Part shown: one piece after another, positions 1-21,455 of the stretch
Layout: each line of letters begins with the position of its first letter
Position numbering within the stretch: the stretch's first letter is position 1
DNA from: Anthopleura xanthogrammica
Taxonomy: Eukaryota; Cnidaria; Anthozoa; Actiniaria; Actiniidae
DNA length: 64,000 bases
Assembly (NCBI GenBank): GCA_964019055.1
Contig: OZ025207.1
Coordinates: 18,501,730 to 18,565,729, forward strand
Direction of reading: 5' to 3'
Translations under genes and position numbers: made by a program
Notes under the pieces: generated by a model
The model's input: the letters and a program-made list of their open reading frames with translations, nothing else
Database searches by the model: none
Told to the model about the DNA's origin: nothing

Positions 1-70
1 AAAAAATCCCTAAAATATCATATACTACAGCGTTTTTTTCTGTTAGTAAAATAACACTTATTTATTGCAG

Positions 71-2321
71 AGAATATGAATTCCCCTCAGCATCTGAACA
101 GCTAGACAGGATAACAAAGACGCTGGAAAAACTTCCTAATTGGACAGTGGTACCAAAGCAACTCTCCACATATAGTATGAGAAAAAACCTCCCCAATTAT
201 TGGGGAAAAGGATGAACCGTTTGATCCATTGGACATGGAGAGCACGAATCTTCAAACTGAAATCTACAACATCTACAATTCCAAAGCCACCACTCAATTT
301 GTCAACTGAGATGTGTAGTATTACGAGCCACCAACTCTTTTTTGTTAGACCAGAAAAATTGATAAGGATATTTAATTTTAGTAGACAAGTGGCCATCTGA
401 CAATGGCAGCACTGTGGCCACATACAGACCAGAGAGTGCAAGAGCATTGGCTACAAGAGATTTTCCTCAGTTGAAAGGACAAGCAACGCCGTTGCCAAAG
501 ATCAAGAACATTGGAGAGTGACGTTATCCGTTTGTCTCAGTTAGAAGAAGAAGAAGGTAAATTAGGGCCCAGAAAGGTACCCAGACATGGGATAGCCTCA
601 CTGGACCAATCAAGAAGAAACCCTTTGATTTAGTAGAATTGAGTTTAGCACAAACATACTGACTGGCATTATTCTTGACAGAGGAGATCGTACTGTCAGA
701 TCGCTTTTTTTTGGACTGATTTAAAAAAAGAAAGAGGTGGAAGACTGCCCCTCTTCTGCCCATTGGGTGCGAGAACGGACTCGCAGACCGTCTGCATTAC
801 TCTGGTAAAGAATGGACAGATTATGAAGAACAGCCATGTATTTAGGCAGAAGAGAAGAATTTCCAAAGTCTATTTGATTTTTGAGGAGAGTAGCACTGTT
901 TTCAAGAGTGGACCTTTCTGAACGTGTGGCTCTAGCTTTAGAAGAACAATATGCGATGGATGGGGACGGTATCCATTGTTTGCCCCTATCCTAAGAATCA
1001 TGACTTCATAATGACTTCAAATTTCCAATAATTTTGTTAATTTTCAGTGAAGAAGATCCCTAACACGGCAAGGGCCCCTTTTCACTAGACTAGGAATATT
1101 TACTTGCAAGGTTACAGCACAATGGTCGGAGTGTGGACAAAGAACGATTTGTGAGGATACAGCAAAATAAGACCACACATTAGCAACACCCGACCGATAA
1201 GATCAATACGAGACAATATTGAACCATCTGCACGTGTCCATGTAAAAGATTTACAAACAGGTTGCAAAGTACGCCAAATATTCCATTCTCCAAGAGTTGG
1301 TCACGCGTAGTTTCTTCTCTTGGCTTAAAAGTGACATCATAGTCAGTAGCTGACAATCGTTGGAAACAGAGGAGGCTGCTCTTGTCGCTAATGACATACA
1401 AAATACGCTGAAGAATAAGGCCACGTGGAAGGAAACCTCCACCTTCTCCTAATCTACTAGGAAATCGCAGAGTAACAGTCTGCGACCAATCCACCGAGTA
1501 GTCCGCGTAGTCCATCGCTGGGCGAGGGGCCTCGCGGACCACACCCTGGGAGATCTTGAAGATCCCACCAGTGAAGGATATCTGGGTCTTGAGCGAGCTT
1601 GATGACGTAAGAACTTCGAATACTGCTCGAACTTGAAAACTTCAGAATTTCAGAACTTCAGAACTTGTAAAAGACCTCAAATGCACTCAGCGACTCTGTG
1701 AAAACAAGGAAAAAATCTATCCTAAAAAAATGAAACCGAGGAAGAAAAGAGAAAGAAGAGGCGTTACCTTGGAAACGAAAAAACGCGTGAAACATTCTTC
1801 TGTGGGGAAAAGTTTAGCAATGCTTAAAGCAGTAATACAGCCGCGCACATGCAGTATGTAATGACTTCAAAGTTCGAATAATTTTGTTGGTTTTCAGTGA
1901 AGAAGATCCCTAACACGGCTATGACGGTGCCGATAGTTATGTTAGACACGATGTTACTATGCAATGATGAAGAGTAAGTTTTACAAAATACATCCCACAT
2001 GAACAAGAGTGACCATGGGGGACTAGTCATTAGTGACACATGCCAAATATCGGGTTAACTGGTCATAGCAAGAGGTTAATCGTCTACGGTCTAGGGGCCG
2101 ACTAACCTCTCCCTTAGGCTTCTGCCGAGCTCCCTGATCAGTCTGTAAATCCTCCCGGGATAATCCATACGTTCGAGGATTCAGCACTCGATGGCTGAAA
2201 GTATGGTCCTGGTTATACATGATTCATAAAAAGAATTCCTAAAATGTTTTCGAAAATGAGAATGACTATTCAACAACTACAGCGTTTTTTCTGTTAGTAA
2301 AATAACACTTATTTATTGCAG
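71..2321. repeat. Array unit 1 (hybrid: LINE C-terminus, linker and ORF1)
   Basis: Starts with exon B (71). Minus-strand Tx1 ORF2 C-terminal and thumb sequence follows (about 136-600), then an internal deletion joins it to the ORF2 linker (about 640-1020). A truncated exon A (1048-1067) stops after 20 bases, followed by LINE ORF1 (about 1180-1545) and 5' flank. A full exon A (1898-1973) and the A-B intron close the unit. It looks like a recombinant of the two ordinary unit types. Confidence 0.75.
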
Positions 2322-4804
2322 AGAATATGAATTCCCCTCAGCATCTGAACAGCTAGACAGGATCACAAAGACGCTGGAAGAACTTCTTAATTGGACAGTG
2401 GTACCAAAGCAACTCTGCACATATAGTATGAGAAAAAAGTTCCTCATTTATTGGGGAAAAGGATGAACCGTTTGATCCATTGGACATGGAGAGCACGAAT
2501 CTTCAAACGGACATCTATAACTCCAAAGCCACCACTCAATTTGTCAACTGAGATGTGTAGTATTACGAGCCACCAACTCTTTTTTGTTAGACCAGAAGAA
2601 TTTAAGGATTAATTGATAGTATTATTATTGATAGTAGACAAGAGGCCATCTGACAATGGCAGCAATGTGACCATACCACAGACCAGAGAGTGCAAGAGCA
2701 TTGGCGACAAGAGATTTTCCTTGAAACGACAAGCAACGCCGCTGCCAAAGATCAAGAACATTGGAGAGTGACGTTATACGTTTGTCCCAGTTAGAAGAAG
2801 AAGGTAAATTAAGGCCCAGAAAGGTATTTAAATGATGACCTGGAAAGGCTGCAAAGACGTGCTATGCGCATAATCTATCCAGAAATATCGTACGCTAAAG
2901 CATTAGATCAATTAGGTTTAGTAACGTTGTACGAAAGACGCCAAAGTCTCACGAAACGTTTACTCAAGGAATGCGCAGTCCAGATTGCTCCATCTCTAAC
3001 AAGGCTATTCAATCTGTCCTTGACTCTTGGGAAGTTTCCAGCTGATTGGAAAGATGCAAATGTCACACCGATCTTCAAGAAGGACTCAAAAAAACTTGTG
3101 AGTAACTATAGACCAATATCTTTGCTACCAATAGTGAGTAAGGTTTTTGAGTAAGGTTTTTGGATGTTCCAAGCAAGCACCTCAGCTGTGATGATGTAAA
3201 GCAAGGGCGACAGTGGGCAGCCTTGCGGAACACCACGAGACAAAGTAAAAAAGGGGGTAAAGAAGCATTGACTTGGACTGTTGGAAGTACATAAGTATAA
3301 AAAGTGGTGATCCATTGAAGAAAGCGGGGACCAAAAGCCATAGCACGTAGAGTTTTCAAGAGAAAGGGCCAGTAAACTCGGTAGAAAGCTTTCTCTTGAT
3401 TGAGAGATATTAAGGCAGCAGGAATGGTATTTAATGTTGCATAGTCAACTATATTTTCCAGAAGATTTACAATCTCTCCAATGAACCGGCCAAGCTCAGA
3501 ACCTGACTGATGCGGAGAGATTACTTGAGATAAAACCTTTTTAAAATAATTTACCAGAGATTGCTCTTGATGCAATTTTATAATCACAATTTAAAAGCGT
3601 AATTGGGCGCCAGTTCTACCGATGACGTAGGTCGCTCTTTTTTGGAACTAAGGTAATTGTGCCCCGGCGTTGGGAGAAAGATAGGCAACCTTTGGGAAAT
3701 CCATAATTACGTACGTCAACAAGGTCATGTCCAAGAATATCCCATAAAGACAGATAAAATTCCATGGGTAGACCATCAAATCCAGGTGTTTTATTATGGG
3801 TCATTCCTTTTAAGGCTATGAGGCATTCATCACCAATTAATACCCCATCACAAAGATCAGATTGTGAAGGGTCAAGACGAGATTCAAGATGTCACAGAAG
3901 AATATTTTGAAGATCACCATCGGTGGATCCAGCAGAAAAGATCTCAGCATAAAATTCCTGCCAGGCGACCAGAAGGTCCGAAGATGAAGAAACATACTAA
4001 CCAGCATTATTCTTCACAGAGAAGATCGTACTATCGCATTTTTTGGACTGATTTAAAAAAGAAAGAGGTGGAAGACTGTCCCTCTTCTGCCCATTGGTTG
4101 CGAGAACGCACTCGCAGACCCTCTGCTTTAATCTGGTCAAGAATGGACAGATTATGAAGAACAGCCATGTAATTAGGCAGCAAAGAAGAATTTCCAAAGT
4201 CTATTTGACTTTTGAGGAGAGTAGCACTGTTTTCACGAGTGCACCTTTCTGAACGCCTGGCTCTAGCTTTAGAAGAACAATATACGATGGACATGGACCG
4301 TATCCATTGTTTGCCCATATCCCACCAATACTTCATAATGACTTCAAATTTCCTATAATTTTGTTGGTTTACAGTGAAGAAGATCCCTAACACGACTATG
4401 ACGGTGCAGATAGTTATGTTAGACACGATGTTACTATGCAATGGCGAAGAGTAAGTTTTACAAAATACATCCCACATGAACAAGAGTGACCATGGGGAAT
4501 TAGTCATTAGCGACACATGCCAAATATCGGGTTAACTGGTCATAGCAAGGGGTTAATCATCTACTGTCTAGGGGCCGACTAACCTCTCCCTTAGGCTTCT
4601 GCCGAGCTCCCTGATCAGTCTGTAAATCCTCCCGGGATAATCCATACGTTCGAGGATTCAGCACTCGATGGCTGGAAGTATGGTCCTGGTTATACATGCA
4701 TGATTCATAAAAACAAAAATCGTAAAATATTTTCGAAAATGTATGAGTATTCAATAACTACAGCGTTGTTCTGTTAGTAAAATAACCGCACTTATTTATT
4801 GCAG
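2322..4804. repeat. Array unit 2 (reverse transcriptase type, with CR1/L2-like insert)
   Basis: Exon B at 2322 breaks into the minus-strand Tx1 ORF2 C-terminus, then RT and linker up to about 4340. A plus-strand CR1/L2-like fragment at 2828-3160 replaces part of the RT. Exon A is 4375-4450, its acceptor reading TTTACAG. Nearly identical to unit 4 at an offset of 4404 bp. Confidence 0.85.
2828..3160 (+). mobile_element. Scrambled CR1/L2-like RT fragment (unit 2)
   Basis: An open plus-strand frame (2864-3154). Its first part (RIIYPEISYAKALDQLGLV, YERRQSL) belongs to the C-terminal end of a CR1/L2-like RT. Its second part (FPADWKDANVTPIFKKDS, NYRPISLLPIVSKVFE) belongs to the N-terminal RT. The two parts are in the wrong order, so the fragment is a rearranged piece. 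It replaces about 290 bp of Tx1 RT seen in unit 7 (about 13998-14285). Confidence 0.78.
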
Positions 4805-4870
4805 AGAATATGGATTCCCCTCAGCATCTGAGCAGCTAGAATGGATCACAAAGACGCTGGAAGATTCCGA
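4375..4870 (+). pseudogene. ACP5/TRAP-like purple acid phosphatase, exon A + exon B (best-preserved pair)
   Basis: Tartrate-resistant purple acid phosphatases are di-metal phosphoesterases of lysosomes or the secretory pathway. Exon A (4375-4450) follows TTTACAG and ends GA|GTAAGT. Its frame reads KKIPNT.MTVQIVMLDTMLLC, which matches the family segment KIP....V.IFMLDTVTLCG of human ACP5. Exon B (4805-4870) follows TTTATTGCAG and ends GA|GTAAGT. It reads EYGFPSASEQLEWITKTLED, matching the stretch around the family's QLSWLKKQL helix. Both exons end in phase 2, and exon B joins exon C (20740) in frame. Most other exon A copies are open as well. The locus as a whole is called a pseudogene because exon C is broken; an intact transcript using these copies is not excluded. 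Confidence 0.72.
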
Positions 4871-6725
4871 GTAAGTCATCAGATTACTGGAACAGAAAAG
4901 CAGTAATGCACAGCCTACCAACACGAAATTCGGCTGTCAAAGCATTTCATTAAGGCATGAGCAGTAAGGATTCCAAATGCTGAAATTGCGATCAAAAACG
5001 GCGTTAAAATCATCTTGGCAAAAAAACAGGACTAGGAGTAATGGAAAAATGGTAAAGATCTTCAAAAAAAAGGCCCTCTAACCAGATACATGCAGGTGAC
5101 ACGAAAGTCATGACAAGAAGATTTAAAGTCGGCAACAGTGACACGTCCAGAATGGTGCTGATGGAAATTGTGCAAAGTGAACCGAGATTTAGAAAGAATA
5201 CATACACCGGCACTGTGATTAGATAAATGCGAGCCAACAAAAGAAAAAGACGACCCATTAAACCAAGATTGGAGTTCAGCATCAGATGTAGAATGGGTCT
5301 CCTGAAGACAGACAATGTCCAGTGAAGGGGCCAAGGAGGTAATCCAGGCAAGAAAAGCCTGTTGTTTAGAAAGGTCGCGAAGACCATTAATGTTTTTAAA
5401 CATTAAGGTCAAGAAGTTAACCATGAAACGTTATTAAGATGGTTTTTGACCCAAAAAAAGACAAATCCAAAAAAGAAATACAGTTGCAAAAATGAGGAAA
5501 AAACATTTAAACATAAACATTAAGTTTAACACTTTTTCGTCAGGCACTTTTTCGTCAGGCACTTTTTCGTCAGGCACTTTTTCATCAGGCACTTCAGTAG
5601 GCAGGTCTTTAACGTTGACGAAAACAGACTTTGGGTCTGACTTGAAGAGTGCAATATGAGAAGCACTAAGATCGACTCCATTCTCCAAGAGTTGGTGACG
5701 CGTAGTTTCTTCGCTGGGCTTAAAAGTGACATCATATTGAGTAGCTGACAATCTTTGGAAACAGAGGACGCTGCTCTTGTCGCCAATGACATGCATCCAA
5801 AATACACTGAAGAATAAGGCTACGTGGAGGGAAAACTCCACCTTCTGCTAATCTCCTAGGCAATCGCAGAGTAACAGTCATCGGCCGATCCACCGAGTAG
5901 TCCGCGTAGTCCATGGCGGGCGAGTGGCTGCGTGGACCATAGTCTTGAAGATCTTGAAGATCCCACCAGTGAAGGATATCTGGGTCTTCAGCTAGCTTGA
6001 TGACTTCAGAACTTCGAAAACTGCTCGAACTTGAAAACTTCAGAATTTCAGAACTTCAGAACTTGTAAAAGACCTCAAATGCACTCAGCGAGTCTGTGAA
6101 AACAAAACAAAAACTATCCTCCAAAAATGAAAGTAGAAAGAGAAAGAAGAGGCGTTACCTTGGAAGCGAAAAAACGCGTGAAACGTGCTTATGTGGGGAA
6201 AATTTGAGCGATGATTAGAGCAGTACATACCACCACGCACATGCAATATGTAATGACTTCAAAGTTCGAATAATTTTGTTGGTTTTCAGTGAAGAAGATC
6301 CCTAACACGGCTATGACGGTGCAGATAGTTATGTTAGATACGATGTTACTATGCAATGATGAAGAGTAAGTTTTACAAAATACATCCCACATGAACAAGA
6401 GTGACCATGGGGGATTAGTCATTAGTGACACATGCCAAATATCGGGTTAACTGGTCATAGCAAGAGGTTAATCGTCTACGGCCTAGGGGCCGACTAACCT
6501 CTCCCTTAGGCTTCTGCCGAGCTCCCTGATCAGTCTGTAAATCCTCCCGGGATAATCCATACGTTCGAGGATTCAGCACTCGATGGCTGAAAGTATGGTC
6601 CTGGTTATACATGATTCATAAAAAGAAGTCCTAAAATATTTTTAGAATAGATGAACTTATTATGTATGAGTATTCAACAACTACAGCGTTTTTTCTGTTA
6701 GTAAAATAACACTTATTTATTGCAG
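4805..6725. repeat. Array unit 3 (endonuclease/ORF1 type)
   Basis: Exon B (4805-4870) has an intact donor. Host intron sequence runs to about 4985, then the minus-strand LINE endonuclease (about 4986-5424), ORF1 (5434-5914) and a 5' region rich in CAGAACTT repeats (about 5990-6070). Exon A is 6290-6365. The simplest reading is a tandem duplication whose junction joins the B-C intron to the middle of the LINE endonuclease. Confidence 0.85.
4986..5914 (-). mobile_element. Tx1-clade LINE fragment: ORF1 and AP endonuclease (unit 3)
   Basis: On the minus strand an ORF1-like frame (5914-5434) begins MDYADYSVDRPMTVTLRLP. It contains CFQRLSAT.YDVTFKPSEET, as in gag-like proteins of Tx1 elements, and four VPDEK repeats, and ends with a hydrophobic tail. 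The next frame (5424 downward) starts MVNFLTLMFKNINGLRD, with SLDIVCLQETHS and AGVCILSKSRF, the AP-endonuclease signature of LINE ORF2. It breaks just after DDFNAVFD near 4986, before the rest of the endonuclease. A small frameshift near 5065 splits the frame. Both products are truncated. Confidence 0.8.
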
Positions 6726-9202
6726 AGAATATGAATTCCCCTCAGCATCTGAACAGCTAGACAGGATCACAAAGACGCTGGAAGAACTTCTTAATTGGAC
6801 AGTGGTACCAAAGCAACTCTGCACATATAGTATGAGAAAAAAGTTCCTCATTTATTGGGGAAAAGGATGAACCGTTTGATCCATTGGACATGGAGAGCAC
6901 GAATCTTCAAACGGACATCTATAACTCCAAAGCCACCACTCAATTTGTCAACTGAGATGTGTAGTATTACGAGCCACCAACTCTTTTTTGTTAGACCAGA
7001 AGAATTTAAGGATTAATTGATAGTATTATTATTGATAGTAGACAAGAGGCCATCTGACAATGGCAGCAATGTGACCATACCACAGACCAGAGAGTGCAAG
7101 AGCATTGGCGACAAGAGATTTTCCTTGAAACGACAAGCAACGCCGCTGCCAAAGATCAAGAACATTGGAGAGTGACGTTATACGTTTGTCCCAGTTAGAA
7201 GAAGAAGGTAAATTAAGGCCCAGAAAGGTATTTAAATGATGACCTGGAAAGGCTGCAAAGACGTGCTATGCGCATAATCTATCCAGAAATATCGTACGCT
7301 AAAGCATTAGATCAATTAGGTTTAGTAACGTTGTACGAAAGACGCCAAAGTCTCACGAAACGTTTACTCAAGGAATGCGCAGTCCAGATTGCTCCATCTC
7401 TAACAAGGCTATTCAATCTGTCCTTGACTCTTGGGAAGTTTCCAGCTGATTGGAAAGATGCAAATGTCACACCGATCTTCAAGAAGGACTCAAAAAAACT
7501 TGTGAGTAACTATAGACCAATATCTTTGCTACCAATAGTGAGTAAGGTTTTTGAGTAAGGTTTTTGGATGTTCCAAGCAAGCACCTCAGCTGTGATGATG
7601 TAAAGCAAGGGCGACAGTGGGCAGCCTTGCGGAACACCACGAGACAAAGTAAAAAAGGGGGTAAAGAAGCATTGACTTGGACTGTTGGAAGTACATAAGT
7701 ATAAAAAGTGGTGATCCATTGAAGAAAGCGGGGACCAAAAGCCATAGCACGTAGAGTTTTCAAGAGAAAGGGCCAGTAAACTCGGTAGAAAGCTTTCTCT
7801 TGATTGAGAGATATTAAGGCAGCAGGAATGGTATTTAATGTTGCATAGTCAACTATATTTTCCAGAAGATTTACAATCTCTCCAATGAACCGGCCAAGCT
7901 CAGAACCTGACTGATGCGGAGAGATTACTTGAGATAAAACCTTTTTAAAATAATTTACCAGAGATTGCTCTTGATGCAATTTTATAATCACAATTTAAAA
8001 GCGTAATTGGGCGCCAGCTCTACCGATGACGTAGGTCGCTCTTTTTTGGAACTAAGGTAATTGTGCCCCGGCGTTGGGAGAAAGATAGGCAACCTTTGGG
8101 AAATCCATAATTACGTACGTCAACAAGGTCATGTCCAAGAATATCCCATAAAGACAGATAAAATTCCATGGGTAGACCATCAAATCCAGGTGTTTTATTA
8201 TGGGTCATTCCTTTTAAGGCTATGAGGCATTCATCACCAATTAATACTCCATCACAAAGATCAGATTGTGAAGGTTCAAGACGAGATTCAAGATGTCACA
8301 GAAGAATATTTTGAAGATCACCATCGGTGGATCCAGCAGAAAAGATCTCAGCATAAAATTCCTGCCAGGCGACCAGAAGGTCCGAAGATGAAGAAACATA
8401 CTAACCAGCATTATTCTTCACAGAGAAGATCGTACTATCGCATTTTTTGGACTGATTTAAAAAAGAAAGAGGTGGAAGACTGTCCCTCTTCTGCCCATTG
8501 GTTGCGAGAACGCACTCGCAGACCCTCTGCTTTAATCTCGTCAAGAATGGACAGATTATGAAGAACAGCCATGTATTTAGGCAGAAAAGAAGAATTTCCA
8601 AAGTCTATTTGACTTTTGAAGAGAGTAGCACTGTTTTCACGAGTGCACCTTTCTGAACGCCTGGCTCTAGCTTTAGAAGAACAATATGCGATGGATATGG
8701 ACCGTATCCATTGTTTGCCCATATCCCACCACCACTTTATAATGACTTCAAATTTCCTATAATTTTGTTGGTTTTCAGTGAAGAAGATCCCTAACACGGC
8801 TATGACGGTGCCGATAGTTATGTTAGACACGATGTTACTATGCAATGGTGAAAAGTAAGTTTTACAAAATACATCCCACATGAACAAGAGTGACCATGGG
8901 GGATTAGTCATTAGCGACACATGCCAAATATCGGGTTAACTGGTCATAGCAAGGGGTTAATCATCTACGGTCTAGGGGCCGACTAACCTCTCCCTTAGGC
9001 TTCTGCCGAGCTCCCTGATCAGTCTGTAAATCCTCCCCGGATAATCCATACGTTCGAGGATTCAGCACTCGATGGCTGAAAGTATGGTCCTGGTTATACA
9101 TGATTCATAAAAACAATTCCTAAAATGATTTGGAAAATGAGAATGAGTATTCAACAACTACAGCGTTTTTTCTGTTAGTAAAATAACACTTATTTATTGC
9201 AG
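6726..9202. repeat. Array unit 4 (reverse transcriptase type, with CR1/L2-like insert)
   Basis: Same content and order as unit 2, with the CR1/L2-like insert at 7232-7564 and exon A at 8779-8854. In this copy GTGCAG within exon A reads GTGCCG, giving proline in place of glutamine, as in unit 1. Confidence 0.85.
7232..7564 (+). mobile_element. Scrambled CR1/L2-like RT fragment (unit 4)
   Basis: Copy of the fragment in unit 2, identical in its predicted protein. It travelled with the unit duplication rather than by independent insertion, because both borders are the same. Confidence 0.78.
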
Positions 9203-11680
9203 AGAATATGAATTCCCCTCAGCATCTGAACAGCTAGACAGGATCACAAAGACGCTGGAAGAACTTCTTAATTGGACAGTGGTACCAAAGCAACTCTGCA
9301 CATATAGTATGAGAAAAAAGTTCCTCATTTATTGGGGAAAAGGATGAACCGTTTGATCCATTGGACATGGAGAGCACGAATCTTCAAACGGACATCTATA
9401 ACTCCAAAGCCACCACTCAATTTGTCAACTGAGATGTGTAGTATTACGAGCCACCAACTCTTTTTTGTTAGACCAGAAGAATTTAAGGATTAATTGATAG
9501 TATTATTATTGATAGTAGACAAGAAGCCATCTGACAATGGCAGCAATGTGACCATACCACAGACCAGAGAGTGCAAGAGCATTGGCGACAAGAGATTTTC
9601 CTTGAAAGGACAAGCAACGCCGCTGCCAAAGATCAAGAACATTGGAGAGTGACGTTATACGTTTGTCCCAGTTAGAAGAAGAAGGTAAATTAAGGCCCAG
9701 AAAGGTATTTAAATGATGACCTGGAAAGGCTGCAAAGACGTGCTATGCGCATAATCTATCCAGAAATATCGTACGCTAAAGCATTAGATCAATTAGGTTT
9801 AGTAACGTTGTACGAAAGACGCCAAAGTCTCACGAAACGTTTACTCAAGGAATGCGCAGTCCAGATTGCTCCTTCTCTAACAAGGCTATTCAATCTGTCC
9901 TTGACTCTTGGGAAGTTTCCAGCTGATTGGAAAGATGCAAATGTCACACCGATCTTCAAGAAGGACTTAAAAAAACTTGTTAGTAACTATAGACCAATAT
10001 CTTTGCTACCAATAGTGAGTAAGGTTTTTGAGTAAGGTTTTTGGATGTTCCAAGCAAGCACCTCAGCTGTGATGATGTAAAGCAAGGGCGACAGTGGGCA
10101 GCCTTGCGGAACACCACGAGACAAAGTAAAAAAGGGGGTAAAGAAGCATTGACTTGGACTGTTGGAAGTACATAAGTATAAAAAGTGGTGATCCATTGAA
10201 GAAAGCGGGGACCAAAAGCCATAGCACGTAGAGTTTTCAAGAGAAAGGGCCAGTAAACTCGGTAGAAAGCTTTCTCTTGATTGAGAGATATTAAGGCAGC
10301 AGGAATGGTATTTAATGTTGCATAGTCAACTATATTTTCCAGAAGATTTACAATCTCTCCAATGAACCGGCCAAGCTCAGAACCTGACTGATGCGGAGAG
10401 ATTACTTGAGATAAAACCTTTTTAAAATAATTTACCAGAGATTGCTCTTGATGCAATTTTATAATCACAATTTAAAAGAGTAATTGGGCGCCAGCTCTAC
10501 CGATGACGTAGGTCGCTCTTTTTTGGAACTAAGGTAATTGTGCCCCGGCGTTGGGAGAAAGATAGGCAACCTTTGGGAAATCCATAATTACGTACGTCAA
10601 CAAGGTCATGTCCAAGAATATCCCATAAAGACAGATAAAATTCCATGGGTAGACCATCAAGCCCAGTTGTTTTATTGTGGGTCATTCCTTTTAAGGCTAT
10701 GAGGCATTCATCACGAATTAATACCCCATCACAAAGATGGGATTGTGAAGGGTCAAGACGAGATTCAAGATGTCGCAGAAGAATATTTTGAAGATCACCA
10801 TCGGTGGATCCAGCAGAAAAGAGCTCAGCAAAGAATTCCTGCCAGGCGCCCAGAAGGTCCGAAGATCAAGAAACGTACTGACCAGCATTATTCTTGACAG
10901 AGAAGATGGTACTGTCCGATCGCTTTTTTTGGACTGATTTAAAAAAGAAAGAGGTGGAAGACTCCCCCTCTTCTGCCCATTGGGTGCGAGAACGGACTCG
11001 CAGACCCTCTGCTTTAACCTGGTGAAGTATGGACAATTTACGAAGAATCGCCTTGTATTTAGGCAGCAAAGAGGAAATTGCAGAGTTTATTTGACTTTTG
11101 AGAAGAGTAGTTTTCTGTTTTCAAGAGTGCACCTTTCAGAACGCCTGGCTTTAGCTTTACAAGAACAATATGCGATGGATATAGGGACGGTATCCACTGT
11201 TTGGCCCTATCCCACCAATCTTCATAATGACTTCGAATTTCCAATAATTTTGTTGGTTTTCAGTGAAGAAGATCCTTACGGCTATGACGTTATGTCAGAC
11301 ACGATGTTACTATGCAATGATGGAGAGTAAGTTTCACAAAATACATCCCACATGGAAAAGAATGACTATGGGGGATTAGTCATTAGCTACACATGCCAAA
11401 TATCGGGTTAACTGGTCATAGCAAGGGGTTAATCATCTACGGTCTAGGGGCCGACTAACCTCTCCCTTAGGCTTCTGCCGAGCTCCCTGATCAGTCTGTA
11501 AATCCTCCCGGGATAATCCATACGTTCGAGGATTCAGCACTCGATGGCTGGAAGTATGGTCCTGGTTATACATGCATGATTCATAAAAACAAAGATCGTA
11601 AAATATTTTCGAAAATGTATGAGTATTCAATAACTACAGCGTTGTTCTGTTAGTAAAATAACCGCACTTATTTATTGCAG
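9203..11680. repeat. Array unit 5 (reverse transcriptase type, with CR1/L2-like insert)
   Basis: Same layout as units 2 and 4, with the insert at 9709-10041. Its exon A (11264-11326) is the divergent copy: 13 bases shorter, so the reading frame differs from the other exon A copies. Confidence 0.85.
9709..10041 (+). mobile_element. Scrambled CR1/L2-like RT fragment (unit 5)
   Basis: Third copy, with the same borders. It differs by one residue (DLKK for DSKK). The small difference is compatible with recent amplification. Confidence 0.78.
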
Positions 11681-11746
11681 AGAATATGGATTCCCCTCAG
11701 CATCTGAGCAGCTAGAATGGATCACAAAGACGCTGGAAGATTCCGA
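11264..11746 (+). pseudogene. ACP5-like exon A + exon B, divergent copy
   Basis: Exon A here (11264-11326) lacks 13 bases present in the other copies (part of CTAACAC and GGTGCCGATA) and has TCA for TTA, so MLDTM becomes MSDTM. Read in its open frame it starts EEDPYGYD rather than KKIPNT, a frameshifted beginning. Exon B ends at 11746 with a broken donor (GGAAGT). Both defects mark this copy as non-functional. Confidence 0.65.
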
Positions 11747-13505
11747 GGAAGTCATCAGATTAATGGAACAGAAAAGCAGTAATGCACAGCCTACCAACAC
11801 GAAATTCGGCTGTCAAAACATTTCATTAAGGCATGAGCAGTAAGGATTCCAAATGCTGAAATTGCGGGGAGATCAAAAACGGCGTTAAAATCATCTTGGC
11901 AAAAAAACAGGACTAGGAGTGTTGGAAAAATGGTAAAGATCTTCAAAAAAAGGCCCTCTAACCAGATACATGCAGGTGACACGAACGTCATGACAAGAAG
12001 ATTTAAAGTCGGCAACAGTGACACGTCCAGAATGGGGCTGATGGAAATTGTGCAAAGTGAACCGAGATTTAGAAAGAATACATACACCGGCACTGTGATT
12101 AGATAAATGCGAGCCAACAAAAGAAAAAGACGACCCATTAAACCAAGATTGGAGTTCAGCATCAGATGTAGAATGGGTCTCCTGAAGACAGACAATGTCC
12201 AGTGAAGGGGCCAAGGAGGTAATCCAGGCAAGAAAAGCCTGTTGTTTAGAAAGGTCGCGAAGACCATTAATGTTTTTAAACATTAAGGTCAAGAAGTTAA
12301 CCATGAAACGTTATTAAGATGGTTTTTGACCCAAAAAAAGACAAATCCAAAAAAGAAATACAGTTGCAAAAATGAGGAAAAAACATTTAAACATAAACAT
12401 TAAGTTTAACACTTTTTCGTCAGGCACTTTTTCGTCAGGCACTTTTTCATCAGGCACTTCAGTAGGCAGGTCTTTAACGTTGACGAAAACAGACTTTGGG
12501 TCTGACTCGAAGAGTGCAATATGAGAAGCACTAAGATCGACTCCATTCTCCAAGAGTTGGTGACGCGTAGTTTCTTCGCTGGGCTTAAAAGTGACATCAT
12601 AGTGAGTAGCTGACAATCTTTGGAAACAGAGGACGCTGCTCTTGTCGCCAATGACATCCAAAATACACTGAAGAATAAGGCCACGTGGAGGGAAAACTCC
12701 ACCTTCTGCTAATCTCCTAGGCAATCGCAGAGTAACAGTCATCGGCCGATCCACCGAGTAGTCCGCGTAGTCCATGGCGGGCGAGTGGCTGCGTGGACCA
12801 AAGTCTTGAAGATCTTGAAGATCCCACCAGTGAAGGATATCTGGGTCTTCAGCTAGCTTGATGACGTCAGAACTTTGAAAACTGCTCGAACTTAAAACTT
12901 CAGAATTTTAGAACTTCAGAACTTGTAAAAGACTTCAATTGCACTCAGCGAGTGAAAACAAAACAAAAACTATCCTCCAAAAATGAAAGTAGAAAGAGAA
13001 AGAAGAGGCGTTACCTTGAAAGCGAAAAAACTCGTGAAACGTTCTTCTCTGAGGAAAATTTGAGCGATGATTAGAGCAGTACATACCACCACGCACATGC
13101 AGTATGTAATGACTTCAAAGTTCCAATAATTTTGTTGGTTTTCAGTGAAGAAGATCCCTAACACGGCTATGACGGTGCAGATAGTTATGTTAGACACGAT
13201 GTTACTATGCAATGATGAAGAGTAAGTTTTACAAAATACATCCCACATGAACAAGAGTGACTATGGAGGATTAGTCATTAGCGACACATGCCAAATATCG
13301 GGTTAACTGGTCATAGCAAGGGGTTAATCATCTACGGTCTAGGGGCCGACTAACCTCTCCCTTAGATAATCCATACGTTCGAGGATTCAGCACTCCATGG
13401 CTGAAAGTATGGTCCTGGTTATACATGATTCACTAAAAAAATCCCTAAAATATCATATACTACAGCGTTTTTTTCTGTTAGTAAAATAACACTTATTTAT
13501 TGCAG
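11681..13505. repeat. Array unit 6 (endonuclease/ORF1 type)
   Basis: Like unit 3: exon B at 11681-11746, but the donor GTAAGT has become GGAAGT. Host intron to about 11875, LINE endonuclease about 11869-12304, ORF1 12314-12775 with three VPDEK units, and exon A 13146-13221. The A-B intron has lost about 54 bases (TTAGGCTTCTGCC region) near 13365. Confidence 0.85.
11869..12775 (-). mobile_element. Tx1-clade LINE fragment: ORF1 and AP endonuclease (unit 6)
   Basis: Second copy of the ORF1 plus endonuclease fragment: ORF1 12775-12314, endonuclease 12304 to about 11869, with the same breakpoint after DDFNAVFD. ORF1 here is uninterrupted over 153 codons and has three VPDEK units against four in unit 3. 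Frame shifts are fewer than in unit 3. Confidence 0.8.
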
Positions 13506-15914
13506 AGAATATGAATTTCCCTCAGCATCTGAACAGCTAGACAGGATCACAAAGACGCTGGAAGAACTTCTTAATTGGACAGTGGTACCAAAGCAACTCT
13601 GCACATATAGTATGAGAAAAACGTTTCCCATTTATTGGGGAAAAGGATGAACCGTTTGATCCATTGGACGTGGAGAGCACGAATCTTCAAACGGACATCT
13701 ATAACTTCAAAGCCACCACTCAATTTGTCAACTGAGATGTGTAGTATTACGAGCCACCAACTCTTTTTTGTTGGACCAGAAGAATTTAAGAATTAATTGG
13801 TAGTATTATTATTGATAGTAGAGAAGAGGCCATCTGACAATGGCAGCACTGTGGCCATACCACAGACCAGAGATCGCAAGAGCATTGGCGACAAGAGATT
13901 TTCCTTGAAAGGACAAGCAACGCCGCTGCCAAAGATCAAGAACATTGGAGAGTGACGTTATACGTTTGTCCCAGTTAGAAGAAGAAGGTAAATTAGGGCC
14001 CAGAAAGGTACCCAAACACGGGATAGCCTCACTTGACCAATCAAGAAGAACTGGGGGGTCTGAGCGGTGTGCCCAGGGTCCAAGCCACAAACCCTTTGGT
14101 TTAGTAGGATTGAGTTTAGCACCAGATGCCCGTTCATATAAGCTATAAATATCAAATATGGCACGAATTGAATCGAAGTTCGTGACAGTCAACGTGGTGT
14201 CATCAGCATACTGATTGATTAAAGATTGACAAGAGTCAAAACCAGGCAAAAGAAAACACTCAATTCGAGGGCAAGCACGGATGTTACAAGCAAGCACCTC
14301 AGCTGTGATGATGTAAAGCAAGGGCGACAGTAGGCAGGCTTGCCGAACACCACAAGACAAAGTAAAAAAGGGGGTAAAGAAGCATTGACTTGGACTGTTG
14401 AAAGTACATCAGTATAAAAAGTGGTGATCCATTGAAGAAAGCTGGGACCAAAACCCATAGCACGTAGAGTTTTCAAGAGAAAAGGCCGGTCAACTCGGTC
14501 GAAAGCTTTCTCTTGATTGAGAGAGATTAAGGCAGCAGGAATGTTATTTAATGTTGCATAGTCAACAATATTGTACAGAGGAAGAACAGTCTCTCCAATG
14601 AACTGGCCGGGCACATAACCTGACTAGTCCGGAGAGATTACTTGAGATAAAACCTTTAATAATCTACCAGAGATTCCTCTTGATGCAATTTTATAATCAC
14701 AATTTAAAAGAGTAATTGGGCGCCAGTTCTTCCGATCACGTAGGTCGTCCTTTTTTGGAACTAAGGTAATTGTGCCCTGGCGTTGGGAGAAAGATAGGCA
14801 ACCTTTGGCAAAACCATTATTAAGTACGTCAACCAGGTCTTTCCCAAGAATATCCCAGAAAGACAGATAAAATTCCATGGGTAGACCATCAAACCCAGGT
14901 GTTTTATTGTGGGTCATTCCTTTTAAGGCTATGAGGCATTCATCACCAATTAATACCCCATCACAAATATCGGATTGTGAAGGGTCCAGACGAGATTCAA
15001 GATGTCGCAGAAGAATATTTTGAAGATCACTATAGGTGGATCCAGCAGAAAAGAGTTCAGCATAGAATTCCTGCCAGGCGCCCAGAAGGTCCGAAGATGA
15101 AGAAACATACTGACCAGCATTATTCTTGACAAAGAAGATGGTACTGTCCAATCGCTTTTTTTGGACTGATTTAAAAAAGAAAGACGTGGAAGACTGCCCC
15201 TCTTCTGCCCATTGGGTGCGAGAACGGACTCGCAGACCCTCTGCTTTAACCTTGGTGAAGAATGGACAGAATACGAAGAATCGCCTTGTATTTAGGCAGC
15301 AAAGAAGAATTTCCAGAGTCTATTTGACTTTTGAGGAGAGTAGCACTGTTTTCAAGAGTGGACCTTTCAGAACGCCTGGCTTTAGCTTTACAAGAGCAAT
15401 ATGCGATGGATAGGGACGGCCATTGTTTGGCCCTATCCCACCAATACTTCATAATGACTTCAAATTTCCAATAATTTTGTAGGTTTTCAGTGAAGAAGAT
15501 CCCTAACACGGCTATGACGATGCAGATAGTTATGTTAGACACGATGTTACTATGCAAAAATGGAGAGTAAATTTTACAATATACATCCCACATGGAAAAG
15601 AATGACTATGGGGGATAAGTCATTAGCGACACATGCCAAATATCGGGTTAACTGGTCATAGCAAGGGGTTAATCATCTACGGTCTAGGGGCCGACTAACC
15701 TCTCCCTTAGGTTTCTGCCGAGCTCCCTGATCAGTCTGTAAATCCTCCCGGGATAGTCCATACGTTCGAGGATTCAGCACTCGATGGCTGAAAGTATGGT
15801 CCTGGTTATACATGATTCATAAAAAAAATTCCTAAAATATTTTCGAAAATGAGTATGAGTATTCAACAACTACAGCGTTTTTTCTGTTAGTAAAATAACA
15901 CTTATTTATTGCAG
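13506..15914. repeat. Array unit 7 (reverse transcriptase type, no insert)
   Basis: Carries the best-preserved Tx1 RT stretch and lacks the CR1/L2-like insert, so it shows the state before that replacement. Exon A is 15491-15566. Confidence 0.85.
13575..15455 (-). mobile_element. Tx1-clade LINE ORF2 fragment (linker, RT, C-terminus), best copy
   Basis: Reading right to left on the minus strand: the linker with WWDRAKQW and a TQWAEEGQSST-like stretch (about 15455-15170), then NNAGQYVSSSSDLLGAWQEF, NKTPGFDGLPMEFY, ITLVPKKDDLRDRKNWRPIT, LNQEKAFDRVD (RT motif A region), GVRQACLLSPLLY (motif B) and QYADDTTL (motif C, catalytic YADD, about 14200). Next come WQRRCLSFQGKSLVANALA and a C-terminal GGFGVIDV..KIRALHVQWI region reaching exon B at about 13575. 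The order and motifs match ORF2 of Tx1-clade (L1-superfamily) LINEs. Frameshifts and the substitution QAC for QGC in motif B indicate a dead copy. The endonuclease is absent here and lies in other units. Confidence 0.85.
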
Positions 15915-16018
15915 AGAATATGGATTCCCCTCAGCATCTGAACAGCTAGACAGGATCACAAAAACGCTGGAAGAACTTCTTAATTGGACAGTGGTACCAA
16001 AGCAACTCTGCTTATATA

Positions 16019-17905
16019 GTATGAGAAACAAGTTTCCCATTTATTGGGGAAAAGGATGAACCGTTTGATCCATTGGACATGGAGAGCACGAATCTTCAAA
16101 CTGACATCTACAACATCTACAATTCCAAAGCCACCACTCCATTTGTCAACTGAGATGTGTAGTATTACAAGCCACCAACTCTTTTTTGTTAGACCAGAAG
16201 AATTTAAGAATTAATTGATAGTATTAATAGGGAACTTAAGCAACTCGAAATCTAGAACGGGAACGTCGGTATCTGAACAAGAAAAGACGATATCGTTCTC
16301 ACCAGAATGCAATATTCAGCAATTGCACGTCGTTCACGTCTTGAGATCAAGAAGTAACACCTATTTCCAGATCTTCCACTATCATTAAATTCAGTTCTGA
16401 AACCTCGGGTCTCACGTCCCCGTCCTAGATTTCGAGTTGCTTAAGTTCCCTATTATTGATAGTAGAAAAGAGGCCATCTGACAATGGCAGCACTGTGGCC
16501 ATACCACAGACCAGAGAGTGCAAGAGCATTGGCGACAAGAGATTTTCCTTGAAAGGACAAGCAACGCCGCTGCCAAAGATCAAGAACATTAGAGAGTGAC
16601 TTTATCCGTTTGTCCCAGTTAGAAGAAGAAGGTAAATGAGGGCCCAGAAAGGTACCCAGACATGGGATAGATAGCTTCACTTGACCAATCAAGAAGAACC
16701 GTGGGGTGTGAGCGGTGTGGCCAGGGTCTAAGCCACAAACCCTTTGATTTAGTAGGATTGAGTTGAGCACCAGATGCCCGTTCATATAAGCAATAAATAA
16801 CCAATATAGCGCGTATTGAATCGTCGTTCGTGACAGTCAACGTGGTGTCAACACCATATTGATTGATTAAAGGTTTACAAGAGTCAAAACCAGGTAAAAG
16901 AAAACCCTCCATTCGAGGGCAAGCACGGATATTACAAGCAAGCACCTCAGCTGTGATGATGTAAAGCAAGGGCGACAGCAGGAATATTATTTAAGGATGC
17001 ATAGTCAACAATATTTTCCAGAAGATTAACAGTCTCTCCAATGAACCGGCCAAGCTCAGAACCTGACTGATCCGGAGGGATTACTTGAGATAAAACCTTT
17101 TTAAAATAATTTACCAGAGATTGCTCTTGATGCAATTTTATAATCACAATTTAAAAGCGTAATTGGGCGCCAGTTCTTCCGATCACGTAGGTCGTCCTTT
17201 TTTGGAACTAAGGTAATTGTGCCCCGGCATTGGGAGAAAAATAGGCAACCTTTGGGAAATCCATAATTACGTACGTCAACAAGGTCATGTCCAAGAATAT
17301 CACAGAAAGACAGATAAAATTCCATGGGTAGACCATCAAACCCAGGTGTTTTATTATGGGTCATTCCTTTTAAGGCTATGAGGCATTCATCACCAATTAA
17401 TACCCCATCACAAATATCGGATTGTGAAGGGTCCAGACGAGATTCAAGATGTCGTAGACGAATATTTTGAAGATCACTATCGGTGGATCCAGCAGAAAAG
17501 AGTTCAGCATAGGATTCCTAACAGGCGCCCAGAAGGTCCGAAGATGAAGAAACATACTGACCGGCGTTATTTTTGACAGAGAAGATCGTACTGTCAGATC
17601 GCTTTTTTTGGTATGATTGAAAAAAGAAAGAGGTGGAAGACTGCCCCTCTTCTGCCCATTGGGTGCGAGAACGGACTCGCAGACCCTCTGCTTTAATCTG
17701 GTCAAGAATGGACAGATTACGAAGAATCGCCTTGTATTTAGGCAGCAAAGAAGAAATTGCAGAGTCTATTTGACTTTTGAGGAGAGTAGCACGGTTTTCA
17801 AGAGTGGACCTTTCTGACCGCCTGGCTTTAGCTTTAGAAGAACAATATGCGATGGATAGGGACGGTATCCATTTTTTGCCCCTATCCCACCAATACTTCA
17901 TAATG
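16019..17905 (-). mobile_element. Tx1-clade LINE ORF2 fragment in unit 8 (deleted RT, MITE insertion)
   Basis: Same ORF2 region as in unit 7. The linker and N-terminal RT (MKYWWDRGKKW to CDYKIASRAISGKLF) lie at about 17900-17100 with long open stretches. Motif A is lost in the deletion at about 16978, and motif C reads YGVD instead of YADD (about 16855). The element is clearly inactive. A foldback element interrupts it at about 16226-16454. Confidence 0.8.
16226..16454. mobile_element. Foldback (MITE-like) element in array unit 8
   Basis: Terminal inverted repeats TAGGGAACTTAAGCAACTCG and its complement CGAGTTGCTTAAGTTCCCTA extend about 28 bp, with CTAGATTTCGAGTTGC near the right end. Units 2, 4, 5 and 7 lack it and show the uninterrupted AGTATTATTATTGATAG site. 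The target duplication cannot be read with certainty because the site is a TTA microsatellite. Confidence 0.85.
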
Positions 17906-18363
17906 ACTTCAAGTTTTCAATAATTTTGTTATTTTTCGGTGAAGAAGATCCCTAACACGGCTATGACGGTGCAGATAGTTATGTCAGACACGATGTTACT
18001 ATGCAATGATGGAGAGTAAGTTTTACAAAATATATCCCACATGGAAAAGAATGACTATGGGGGATTAGTCATTAGCGACACATGCCAAAGTTCGGGTTAA
18101 CTGGTCATAGCAAGGGGTTAATCATCTACGGTCTAGGGGCCGACTAACCTCTCCCTTAGGCTTCTGCCGAGCTCCCTGATCAGTCTGTAAATCCTCCCGG
18201 GATAATCCATACGTTCGAGGATTCAGCACTCGATGGCTGAAAGTATGGTCCTGGTTATACATGATTCATAAAAAGAATTCCTAAAATATTTTCAAAAATG
18301 AGTATGAGTATTGAACACCTACAGCGTTTTTTCTGTTAGTAAAATAACACTTATTTATTGCAG

Positions 18364-19714
18364 AGAATATGGATTTCCCTCGGCATCTGAACAGCTAGAC
18401 AGGATCACAAAAACGCTGGAAGAACTTCGTAATTGGACAGTGGTACCAAAGCAACTCTGCACATATAGTATGAGAAAAAAGTTCCCCATTTTTTGGGGAA
18501 AAGGATGAACCGTTCAATCCATTCGACATGGAGAGCACGAATCTTCACTGTTTTCAAGAGTGGACCTTTCTGAACGCCTGGCTTTAGCTTTAGAAGAATA
18601 ATATGCATAAGTACAGATGACACGAAAGTCATGACAAAAAGATTTAAAGTAGGCAACAGTGACACGTCCAGAATGATACTGATGGAAATTGTGCAAAGTG
18701 AACCGAGATTTAAAAAGAAAACATTCACCGGCACTGTGATTAGATAAATGCGAGCCAACAAAAGAAAAAGAAGACCCATCAAACTAAGATTGGACTGAGT
18801 TCAGTATCAGATGTAGAATGGGTCTCCTGAAGGCAGACAATGTCCAGTGAAGGGGCCAAGGAGGTAAACCAGGCAAGAAAAGCCTGACCTTTAGAAATGT
18901 CGCGAAGAGAAGTTAACCATGAAACGTTGCTAAGATGGTTTTTGACCCAAAAAAAGACAAATCCAAAAAAGAAATACAGTTGCAAAAATTAGGGGGAAAA
19001 ACATTTAACAGTCCTCGGACGATCCAACGAGTAGTCCGCGTAGTCCATCGCTAGGCGAGGGGCAGCATGGACCGCACCCTTGAAGATCTTGAAGATCCCA
19101 ACAGTGAAGGATATCTGGGTCTTCAGCGAGCTTGATGACGTCAGAACTTCGAAAACTGCTCGAACTTCAAAAACTTCAGAATTTCAGAACTTCAGAACTT
19201 GTAAAAGACCTCAAATGCAGTCAACCACTATGTCAAAACAAGGGAAAAAAGCTATCCTCCAAAAATGAAACCGAGAAAAAAAGAGAAAGAAGAGGCATTA
19301 CTTTGGAAACGAAAAAACGCGTTAAAAGTACTCTCTGGGGGAAATTTTAGCGAGAGTAAGTTTTACAAAATACATCCCACATGGAAAAGAGTGAGTATGG
19401 GGGATAAGTAATTAGCGACACATGCCAAATATCGGGTTAACTGGTCATAGCAAGGGGTTAATCATCTACGGTCTAGGGGCCGACTAACCTCTCCCTTAGG
19501 CTTCTGCCGAGTTCCCTGATCAGTCTGTAAATCCTCCCGGGATAATCCATACGTTCGAGGATTCAGCACTCGATGGCTGAAAGTATGGTCCTGGTTATAC
19601 ATGATTCATAAAAAGAAGTCCTAAAATATTTTTAGAATAGATGAACTTATTATGTACGAGTATTCAACAACTACAGCGTTTTTCTGTTTGTAAAATAACA
19701 CTTATTTATTGCAG
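18364..19714. repeat. Array unit 9 (shortened endonuclease type, exon A lost)
   Basis: Exon B at 18364, a rearranged short LINE C-terminal and linker piece, endonuclease sequence (about 18610-18985), and 5' region (about 19010-19350). Exon A is deleted: only its donor side (GAGAGTAAGTTTTACAAAATAC at about 19352) remains. The next exon B (19715) is the last copy of the array. Confidence 0.8.
18610..19010 (-). mobile_element. Tx1-clade LINE endonuclease remnant (unit 9)
   Basis: Minus-strand endonuclease sequence related to units 3 and 6 (SLAPSLDIVCLQETHSTSD at about 18880-18800, then HNFHQYHSGRVTVAYF). The start is eroded, and ORF1 has been lost between about 19010 and the 5' region. Confidence 0.7.
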
Positions 19715-19807
19715 AGAATATGGATTCCCCTCAGCATCTGAACAGCTAGAATGAATCACAAAGACGCTGGAAGATCAATTCCAAGTAAGTCAACAGATTA
19801 ATTATAA

Positions 19808-19967
19808 GTAATAGCATGACTTGAGGGTGATTAGTGATTAAATGTCCCCGAAAGCCGAGGGAGGTTCTGTTGAAGTCCCGACGCCGAAGGCGGAGGGACT
19901 TTAACTAAACCTCCCGAGGCTTGAGGGGACATTTAATCACTAATCACCCGAAATTTCATGCTATTAG
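19808..19967. repeat. Foldback element in the ACP5-like B-C intron
   Basis: Near-perfect inverted repeat: TAATAGCATGA..TTGAGGGTGATTAGTGATTAA at the left and its complement at the right, with a GC-rich centre (CCGACGCCGAAGGCGGAGGG). It is part of about 770 bp (19800-20565) inserted into the intron relative to units 3 and 6. Confidence 0.8.
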
Positions 19968-20390
19968 TTTGTAATATTATGATTACCAAGGAATAAAACT
20001 GCTCTTAGGAAATATGTTAGCTTTCGTACGATGCATAAATTACAAAGTTTTACAAAGCTGTTGATATGCGGCATACTTAAGGGAATTTGCCTTTGTTAAA
20101 TGCGACAATGGCCAATTTGAACCAGCATTCATTCATTCGTGCTGCTTTATTCTAATTCACTTTGGTTGGCCTAGAGCGGTATTAATGAAGTGTTTTAAAA
20201 CCGTCTTGATTACGTCACAAATAGTAAGAAAACTTCTCGGCTAGACAACGTATGCGCAAACATTGTTCAATGGATCCCACAAGTGCTGGGGTGTTCAATA
20301 GTGTGTAGTCCAGAGTCATTGCGCAAAATTTTCGATTGGGTCAATGCTACCCAGCCATGTTCCCGGTGATTGTCGTATGAGGGACCATGG

Positions 20391-20510
20391 CTCATGAATA
20401 GTGATGAGGGATATTTAGTTACTAAATATCCCTCATGATTATATTCATGAGGGATATTTAGACTAAATATCCCTCATCACTATTCATCCAGGGGGATGTT
20501 AGACCTTAAA
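20391..20510. repeat. Nested palindromes, ATGAGGGATATTTAG repeats
   Basis: The motif TGAGGGATATTTAG occurs twice on each strand within 120 bp (GATGAGGGATATTTAGTTACTAAATATCCCTCATG and a second palindrome after it). This forms a cruciform-prone block next to the previous foldback element. Confidence 0.75.
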
Positions 20511-20739
20511 CATCCCTCTGGAAACAATGGATCCCGAGGTAATCATGATATTATGGGAAAAAACCACAGAAAAGAAGTAATGCACAGGCTGCCAACACGA
20601 AATTCGGCTGTCCTAGCATTTCGTTAAGGCATACGCAGTAAGGATTCCAAATGCTGAAATTGCAGGGAGATTGAGTGCCATCAACACGTAAACACGGCCT
20701 AAGAAAATTTTAGTTCTCTCTTCTCTTTTATTCCAACAG

Positions 20740-21455
20740 TGGAAATTATTTGATAGTGGCTGGACATCATCCTATGTTTTCAGCAGGTTTCCATGGAAAC
20801 TGAGATTGCTTGATGTCAAGTCTTAATAATAATAATAATAACTTTATTGATAAAATTGACTGGCAATTCGAAAGAATTGAAAAACTCAATATTTACATAG
20901 TTTTAAAATATATCTAAAATATTTGCATGATTGAAAAAATATATATATATAATTTTAGGTAAAAGTACAAGTTAAAATTAGTCCCATTTCTTTATTGAAC
21001 TTGGTATAAAACTATTCTGATATCTTTTAGTCCTACACTTGAGTAATGGGATTCTCCTGGGATTTCTAAGGCTGTAGTTTTTAGATATAGGTTTAGGTAA
21101 AAGGCAGTTCAGTTTATTATCGGTACATGTAATGTTATTGTAGAATTTCCTGCACAAATGTTCTCGTCTCTCATAGTGAGTGGTGAGGTTTAATTCATTG
21201 AGAGCGTCCTTATATGACAATTGAGGGTACACTATACGAAGCGCCCGACGCTGGATGGCTTCAAGTTGGTCTTTAAGTTTACATGTCAAAGAAGGATGCC
21301 AGACGGGGCAGGCGTACTCTAATAAAGGTCTTATAAAATAGCAGTAGACGGATCGAAGATCTTTAGATTGCACGCCACTACGCTTAAGAGTTAAACCCGT
21401 ACTTGAGAAGTATGACGTCACAGGGTACATCAGTGGACACGATCACAACCTACAG
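20740..21455 (+). pseudogene. ACP5/TRAP-like exon C, interrupted by a LINE and a stop codon
   Basis: After TTCCAACAG the frame set by exon B gives DGNYLIVAGHHPMFSAGFHG, matching the family's YVLVAGHYPVWSIAEHG, then an in-frame TGA (20799-20801), then DCLMSSL to 20824. A LINE occupies 20825-21401. The exon resumes at about 21402 with LEKYDVTGYISGHDHNLQ and a GTTAGT donor after 21455. GHDHNLQ is the conserved metal-binding motif of TRAPs, and VAGHYP supplies another active-site histidine. Removing the LINE rejoins the exon in frame with CTT present on both sides, consistent with a short target duplication. The stop codon alone would inactivate it. Later exons were not found. Confidence 0.82.
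20825..21401 (-). mobile_element. 5'-truncated CR1/L2-type LINE (RT C-terminal part) with (ATT)n tail
   Basis: The minus frame at 20978-21430 contains the C-terminal part of a Jockey-superfamily RT: SVYCYFIRPLLEYACPVWH, then QRRALRIVYPQLSYKDAL and THYERREHL, a block very common in cnidarian and fish CR1/L2-like elements. The 3' end is a TTATTATTATTATT tail at 20825-20843. The 5' end is truncated at about 21401. The element sits inside the acid phosphatase exon C. It is not autonomous, having no catalytic RT motifs or endonuclease. Confidence 0.8.

Follow-up and report, generated by a model that had tools for sequence, protein, structure and literature searches.

A tandem exon array beside an intact acid phosphatase gene

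The window analysed here is a 64,000-nucleotide stretch of the genome of the sea anemone Anthopleura xanthogrammica (C2:18501730-18565729, in an assembly of 290 Mb and 125 contigs), and its positions 1-21455 hold tandem repeats of two exons, A and B, from a gene for tartrate-resistant (purple) acid phosphatase of type 5 (ACP5/TRAP). The whole array comprises 17 units together with a fragment of exon A and spans ~40 kb (C2:18.4835-18.5232 Mb); it continues beyond the left edge of the window, its first relic lying ~18 kb to the left of it. Besides the exons of the neighbouring gene 2 described below, there are 14 copies of exon A, one A fragment and 16 copies of exon B. A preliminary description of this DNA had reported a tandem exon pair in 8 to 10 copies, which is real for the window (eight near-full exon A copies, one 5′ fragment and ten exon B copies) and smaller than the total of 17 units. 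The copies in the window are direct repeats spaced 1.3-2.5 kb apart, mostly at 85-100% identity, with ungapped identity of only 61-77% in copies that carry indels; the main matches to gene 2 have a gapped identity of 82-95%. This similarity is far beyond chance. A pattern search of the whole assembly with up to three mismatches returned 14 matches to the exon A start and 17 to the exon B start, gene 2 counted in each, all on the C2 stretch that holds gene 2 and the array, and reversed control patterns of the two starts returned none. Two additional exon A copies with indels are visible by alignment.

An intact paralogue, proposed as something to be sought elsewhere in the genome, was found just left of the array and outside the window. 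This gene, gene 2 (C2:18475908-18481526), has seven exons and encodes 356 amino acids: exons 1 and 2 (18475908-18476087 and 18478353-18478602), exons A, B and C (18479360-18479435, 18479791-18479856 and 18480069-18480216) and exons D1 and D2 (18480774-18480880 and 18481283-18481526). In the predicted model all introns are GT-AG, phases match and internal stops are absent. Over residues 29-317 the predicted protein aligns with human TRAP (1war; E = 1e-70), and it matches Pfam Metallophos above the cut-off; its top match among 342 proteins (E up to 0.001) is a TRAP type 5-like protein of Actinia tenebrosa at 83-84% identity, in keeping with an actiniarian-like anthozoan host. Of the seven positions that we take to be the TRAP metal ligands (D, D, Y, N, H, H, H), all are present in gene 2 as D37, D75, Y78, N114, H200, H235 and H237, invariant across six aligned sequences. 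By its match over the full domain and these seven positions, gene 2 is assigned to ACP5/TRAP, with predicted enzyme activity.

Exons A and B of the array, derived from gene 2, were recognized as ACP5/TRAP-like in the preliminary description, and a virtually spliced A+B+C peptide indeed matches rat purple acid phosphatase (1qfc) at E = 4.2e-12. The pair encodes approximately residues 144-191 of gene 2, which include none of the seven metal-ligand positions but do include other invariant residues, such as D160; the array units thus lack the catalytic residues of ACP5/TRAP. Exons 1, 2 and D1 are missing from the array copies, as is exon C except for one broken copy.

Two further TRAP genes are predicted in the assembly. 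Gene 1, at approximately C2:18452.5-18457.4k, is a diverged tandem paralogue of gene 2, and a third gene lies at C8:14291.3-14294.4k. The A. tenebrosa proteins P0014, P0001 and P0040 resemble the three TRAP genes; P0001 probably corresponds to gene 2 and P0014 to gene 1, and both lie on a contig of 227,054 bases. The gene 2-gene 1 pair is suggested to be in tandem in A. tenebrosa too. Self-matches mark a tandem repeat of ~78 bp in the intron before gene 2 exon 2 (C2:18477808-18478361). A dispersed repeat, with 22 other places at 76-87% identity, lies within intron A-B both in gene 2 and in array units (window 4454-4640), and it predates the amplification.

Anatomy of the units

All exon copies in the window lie on the plus strand. 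The first is an exon B (71-126) that runs into LINE sequence and belongs to a unit starting left of the window, with its exon A deleted; an exon A 5′ fragment follows at 1048-1069, located by pattern search and alignment to gene 2. At 1722-1829, a D2 relic, from the tail end of that last exon, abuts sequence that begins 70 bp before exon A, forming the duplication junction. It precedes a unit (1898-2381) with an open exon A (1898-1973) and an exon B (2322-2381) that lacks a donor and is followed by LINE. In the next unit (4375-4989), exon A (4375-4450) and exon B (4805-4870) are both open with AG and GT, and a partial intron B-C follows; no other pair in the window keeps all four of its splice sites. 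The unit at 6137-6785 consists of a D2 relic (6137-6220), an open exon A (6290-6365) and an exon B without donor (6726-6785); that at 8779-9262 has an open exon A (8779-8854) and again a donorless exon B (9203-9262). At 11264-11873, exon A is frameshifted, exon B starts at 11681 with its donor changed from GT to GG, and a partial intron B-C is retained. Three units then end in a donorless exon B: 12993-13565 (D2 relic 12993-13076, open exon A 13146-13221, exon B 13506-13565), 15491-15974 (open exon A 15491-15566, exon B 15915-15974) and 17940-18423 (exon A 17940-18015 open with its acceptor changed from AG to GG, exon B 18364-18423). In the last unit (19257-19800), a D2 relic (19257-19353) is fused to the extreme end of exon A, the remainder of which is deleted, and exon B, from 19715, carries an in-frame TGA.

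Nearly all exon A copies had been described as keeping frame and splice sites. This stands for six of the eight in the window and fails for the copy at 11264, where the frameshift leaves 63 nt rather than 76, and for that at 17940 with its GG acceptor. Retention does not extend to the pair, with seven of the ten exon B copies in the window losing homology inside the exon, at gene 2 coordinates 18479846-18479850, and entering LINE. Exon C does occur once, as reported; this sole copy in the window (20740-21455), however, has an in-frame TGA and is interrupted by an insertion at ~20827-21390. Of the 17 units overall, 12 retain an exon A that is open and bordered by AG and GT; in one the acceptor is broken, in one the frame is shifted, and in three most or all of exon A is gone. 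Only two (C2:18483550 and window 4305) combine open A and B exons with intact dinucleotides at all four splice sites.

No tRNA genes were found in the window (ARAGORN, bacterial setting). Further along, at 23674-24110, the pentanucleotide TGAAG is repeated ~87 times in a perfect array with 100% matches.

LINE debris and the exon B junction

The dead LINE previously noted between the copies was confirmed as LINE debris between units. It is antisense to gene 2, occupies the place expected for exons C and D1 and, in the copies examined, begins at the exon B homology breakpoint. Overall, gene 2 homology ends within exon B at 18479846-18479850 in 12 of 16 copies, and the other four continue into intron B-C. 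A minus-strand piece at 13562-15445 represents the ORF2 reverse-transcriptase side of the LINE and has relatives between most units; another at 4985-6130, also on the minus strand, covers the endonuclease and 5′ side and has an exon B on one side and a D2 relic on the other. One LINE piece of the array matches Pfam Exo_endo_phos (E = 2.4e-8) and another gives a weak match to RVT_1 (E = 4.8e-4, below the Pfam cut-off). Because LINE breakpoints recur among units, capture of the LINE probably preceded most of the expansion. A plus-strand piece found in three units (2826-3170, 7230-7574 and 9707-10051), with 99-100% identity among them, reads by eye like the reverse transcriptase of another LINE family.

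Relatives of the array LINE, ~80% identical to it, form a large and very homogeneous tandem array at C9:10.033-10.471 Mb. A 30-base LINE pattern has at least 41 matches there over 438 kb, all exact, and no match elsewhere in the assembly with up to two mismatches. Unit spacings include ~5.7 and 8.05 kb, and the C9 array could be a LINE-based satellite or a centromere. No RNA families reached gathering cut-offs in sample L078 (C9:10372401-10375460) or sample L035.

The exon pair is flanked by parts of one LINE family with common breakpoints, as it would be if it were cargo captured and carried by the LINE through transduction or exon shuffling. We regard this origin as extremely improbable. Exon A and B starts are confined to this stretch of C2, while the LINE relatives sit on C9, and dispersed or transduced exon cargo is therefore unlikely. 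Compared with one C9 relative, moreover, the array LINE stops short of the end of its second reading frame where it meets exon B. Target-primed insertion is not known to leave a LINE without its second-frame end at such a junction, and the missing end suggests that the junction was made by deletion and not by insertion. No candidate was found for a predicted protein joining A+B to the LINE reading frame.

A recurrent junction points to partial duplication of gene 2

Comparison of gene 2 with the region by blastn revealed eight relics of the D2 tail in the array, which the preliminary description did not include. Six of the eight end at gene 2 coordinate 18481494 and are fused directly to coordinate 18479290, which lies 70 bp before the start of exon A; the remaining two carry a common derived deletion that links the relic to the final bases of exon A. 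The recurrence of the 18481494|18479290 junction in six units is a signature of tandem duplication of the 3′ half of gene 2. Long blocks also recur at spacings of 4.4 and 6.9 kb with ~96% identity, as unequal exchange would give.

Some blocks, including the three copies of the plus-strand piece above, are 99-100% identical, which is what would be seen if an assembly artefact had inflated the copy number. Such inflation is very unlikely: the units differ by ~5% on average and carry private indels and deletions, and the array sits within a 27.7-Mb contig in which the 134-kb stretch examined contains no N.

We put at about 90% the probability that the array is a non-functional tandem array generated from the 3′ half of the adjoining intact gene 2. 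The first copy would have been a tandem duplication of gene 2 coordinates 18479290-18481494, from which an antisense LINE and deletions would then have removed exons C and D1. Expansion to ~17 units, some of them double units of ~4.4 kb, may have come about as the long repeats underwent unequal crossing-over or replication slippage, and the exon copies would have drifted as passengers since then.

Exon copies show no sign of use

Exon A runs from phase 1 to phase 2 and exon B from phase 2 to phase 2; gene 2 exon 2 ends in phase 1, and exon C starts in phase 2. Serial A-B-A-B splicing was rejected: the pair is phase-asymmetric (1 to 2), and its repetition shifts the frame. The unusual gene architecture that had been proposed is not supported by these phases, which bar in-frame repetition, or by the finding that intact gene 2 ends before the array.

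A lone A+B pair between exon 2 and exon C would be in frame, and gene 2 or a third gene could in principle splice in one pair at a time, as in mutually exclusive exons of the Dscam type. The 12 units with an open exon A and both its splice dinucleotides also fit such a working cluster. We nevertheless give it only a slim chance. Exons C, D1 and D2 of gene 2 precede the array, and the only exon C after it has the TGA and the insertion, with no significant D1 or D2 match beyond it by blastn of gene 2 against the region. Mutually exclusive exon clusters have members of similar length with conserved splice sites and frame, according to a published account (PMC3228551). Across the 17 units, these features are kept by exon A in 12 and by the complete pair in 2, and gene 2, which ends before the array, does not supply compatible exons on both sides of it. 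Like Dscam clusters, the array has homologous tandem exons, of similar length in most A copies and with mostly conserved A splice sites; unlike them, most of its B copies lack a donor, it lies 3′ of the gene's own end exons and no intact exons follow.

Divergence points in the same direction as the non-functional array. Among 12 copies it averages 4.9% in exon A, 5.0% in intron A-B and 6.8% in exon B; the comparison with gene 2 gives 4.6%, 6.3% and 7.7%, respectively. These means cover 12 of the 17 units, the five with a missing A or B or with an interruption being excluded. The stretch upstream of exon A diverges by 20.3%, a value set aside because about half of the units carry non-homologous LINE there. 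Changes were scored against the array consensus, in 14 of 17 units for exon A and 15 of 16 copies for exon B, and the tests treat as independent what are small numbers of changes in related copies. The check for constraint by substitution counts that had been proposed gave 12 nonsynonymous and 4 synonymous changes in exon A, as expected without constraint (3.3-4.1 synonymous). Exon B has 9 nonsynonymous and 7 synonymous changes against 4.0-4.9 synonymous expected (P = 0.08-0.19); one of these seven "synonymous" changes is the last unit's TGA, which is a stop codon where it occurs. With 16 changes in exon A, the probability that none creates a stop is 0.49-0.59, and a 76-bp exon at ~5% divergence needs no selection to keep its frame.

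Exon A thus appears to evolve without constraint, its coding changes close to neutral, and selection on the exon copies left no clear signal in divergence or substitution counts. Some points run against a neutral array: exon A is open with AG and GT in 12 of 17 units, exon B has a slight synonymous excess, and exon A (4.6%) lies below the intron (6.3%) in divergence from gene 2, although exon B lies above it (7.7%). Judged from the sequence, the exon copies show no sign of use. The suggestion that they are used and kept is not supported: exon A diverges like intron, coding changes are near neutral and exon B copies mostly lack a donor.

Discussion

Partial tandem gene duplication, with the pseudogene arrays it leaves, is a known general class, and an intact adjacent parent and a recurrent duplication junction, as expected of it, are both present here. 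Also like the class are the mobile-element debris and the lack of clear constraint; 17 units of a two-exon core, with exon A mostly open, are unlike a typical member. The best explanation of the locus is an ordinary tandem array of partial gene copies that decays near-neutrally next to the intact parent. Another sea anemone, Nematostella, has a tandem amplification in its Nv1 cluster, for which the authors discuss replication slippage and non-allelic recombination (PMC9842752). That cluster, as described there, consists of nearly identical whole genes at a locus largely without mobile elements, whereas broken gene pieces and LINE debris make up the array here. Among the titles that a literature search listed, none concerns this locus.

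We see a small chance of a regulatory or small-RNA role. The antisense LINE pieces lie in one orientation behind what would be an active promoter, and read-through from gene 2 might transcribe the array and make these pieces a putative piRNA-type source against the LINE family, whose relatives form the large homogeneous array on C9; the acid phosphatase exons would then be splice-active passengers. This reading is a long shot in our estimation.

The decaying partial-gene array answers the earlier choice between very recent amplification and use, in that retention of the exon A frame does not require use. The locus shows that chance can make a short, tandemly repeated exon appear conserved, and annotators should be cautioned against calling a multi-exon gene at the array. 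Were the small-RNA reading correct, arrays of gene fragments would be tied to the control of transposons in cnidarians.
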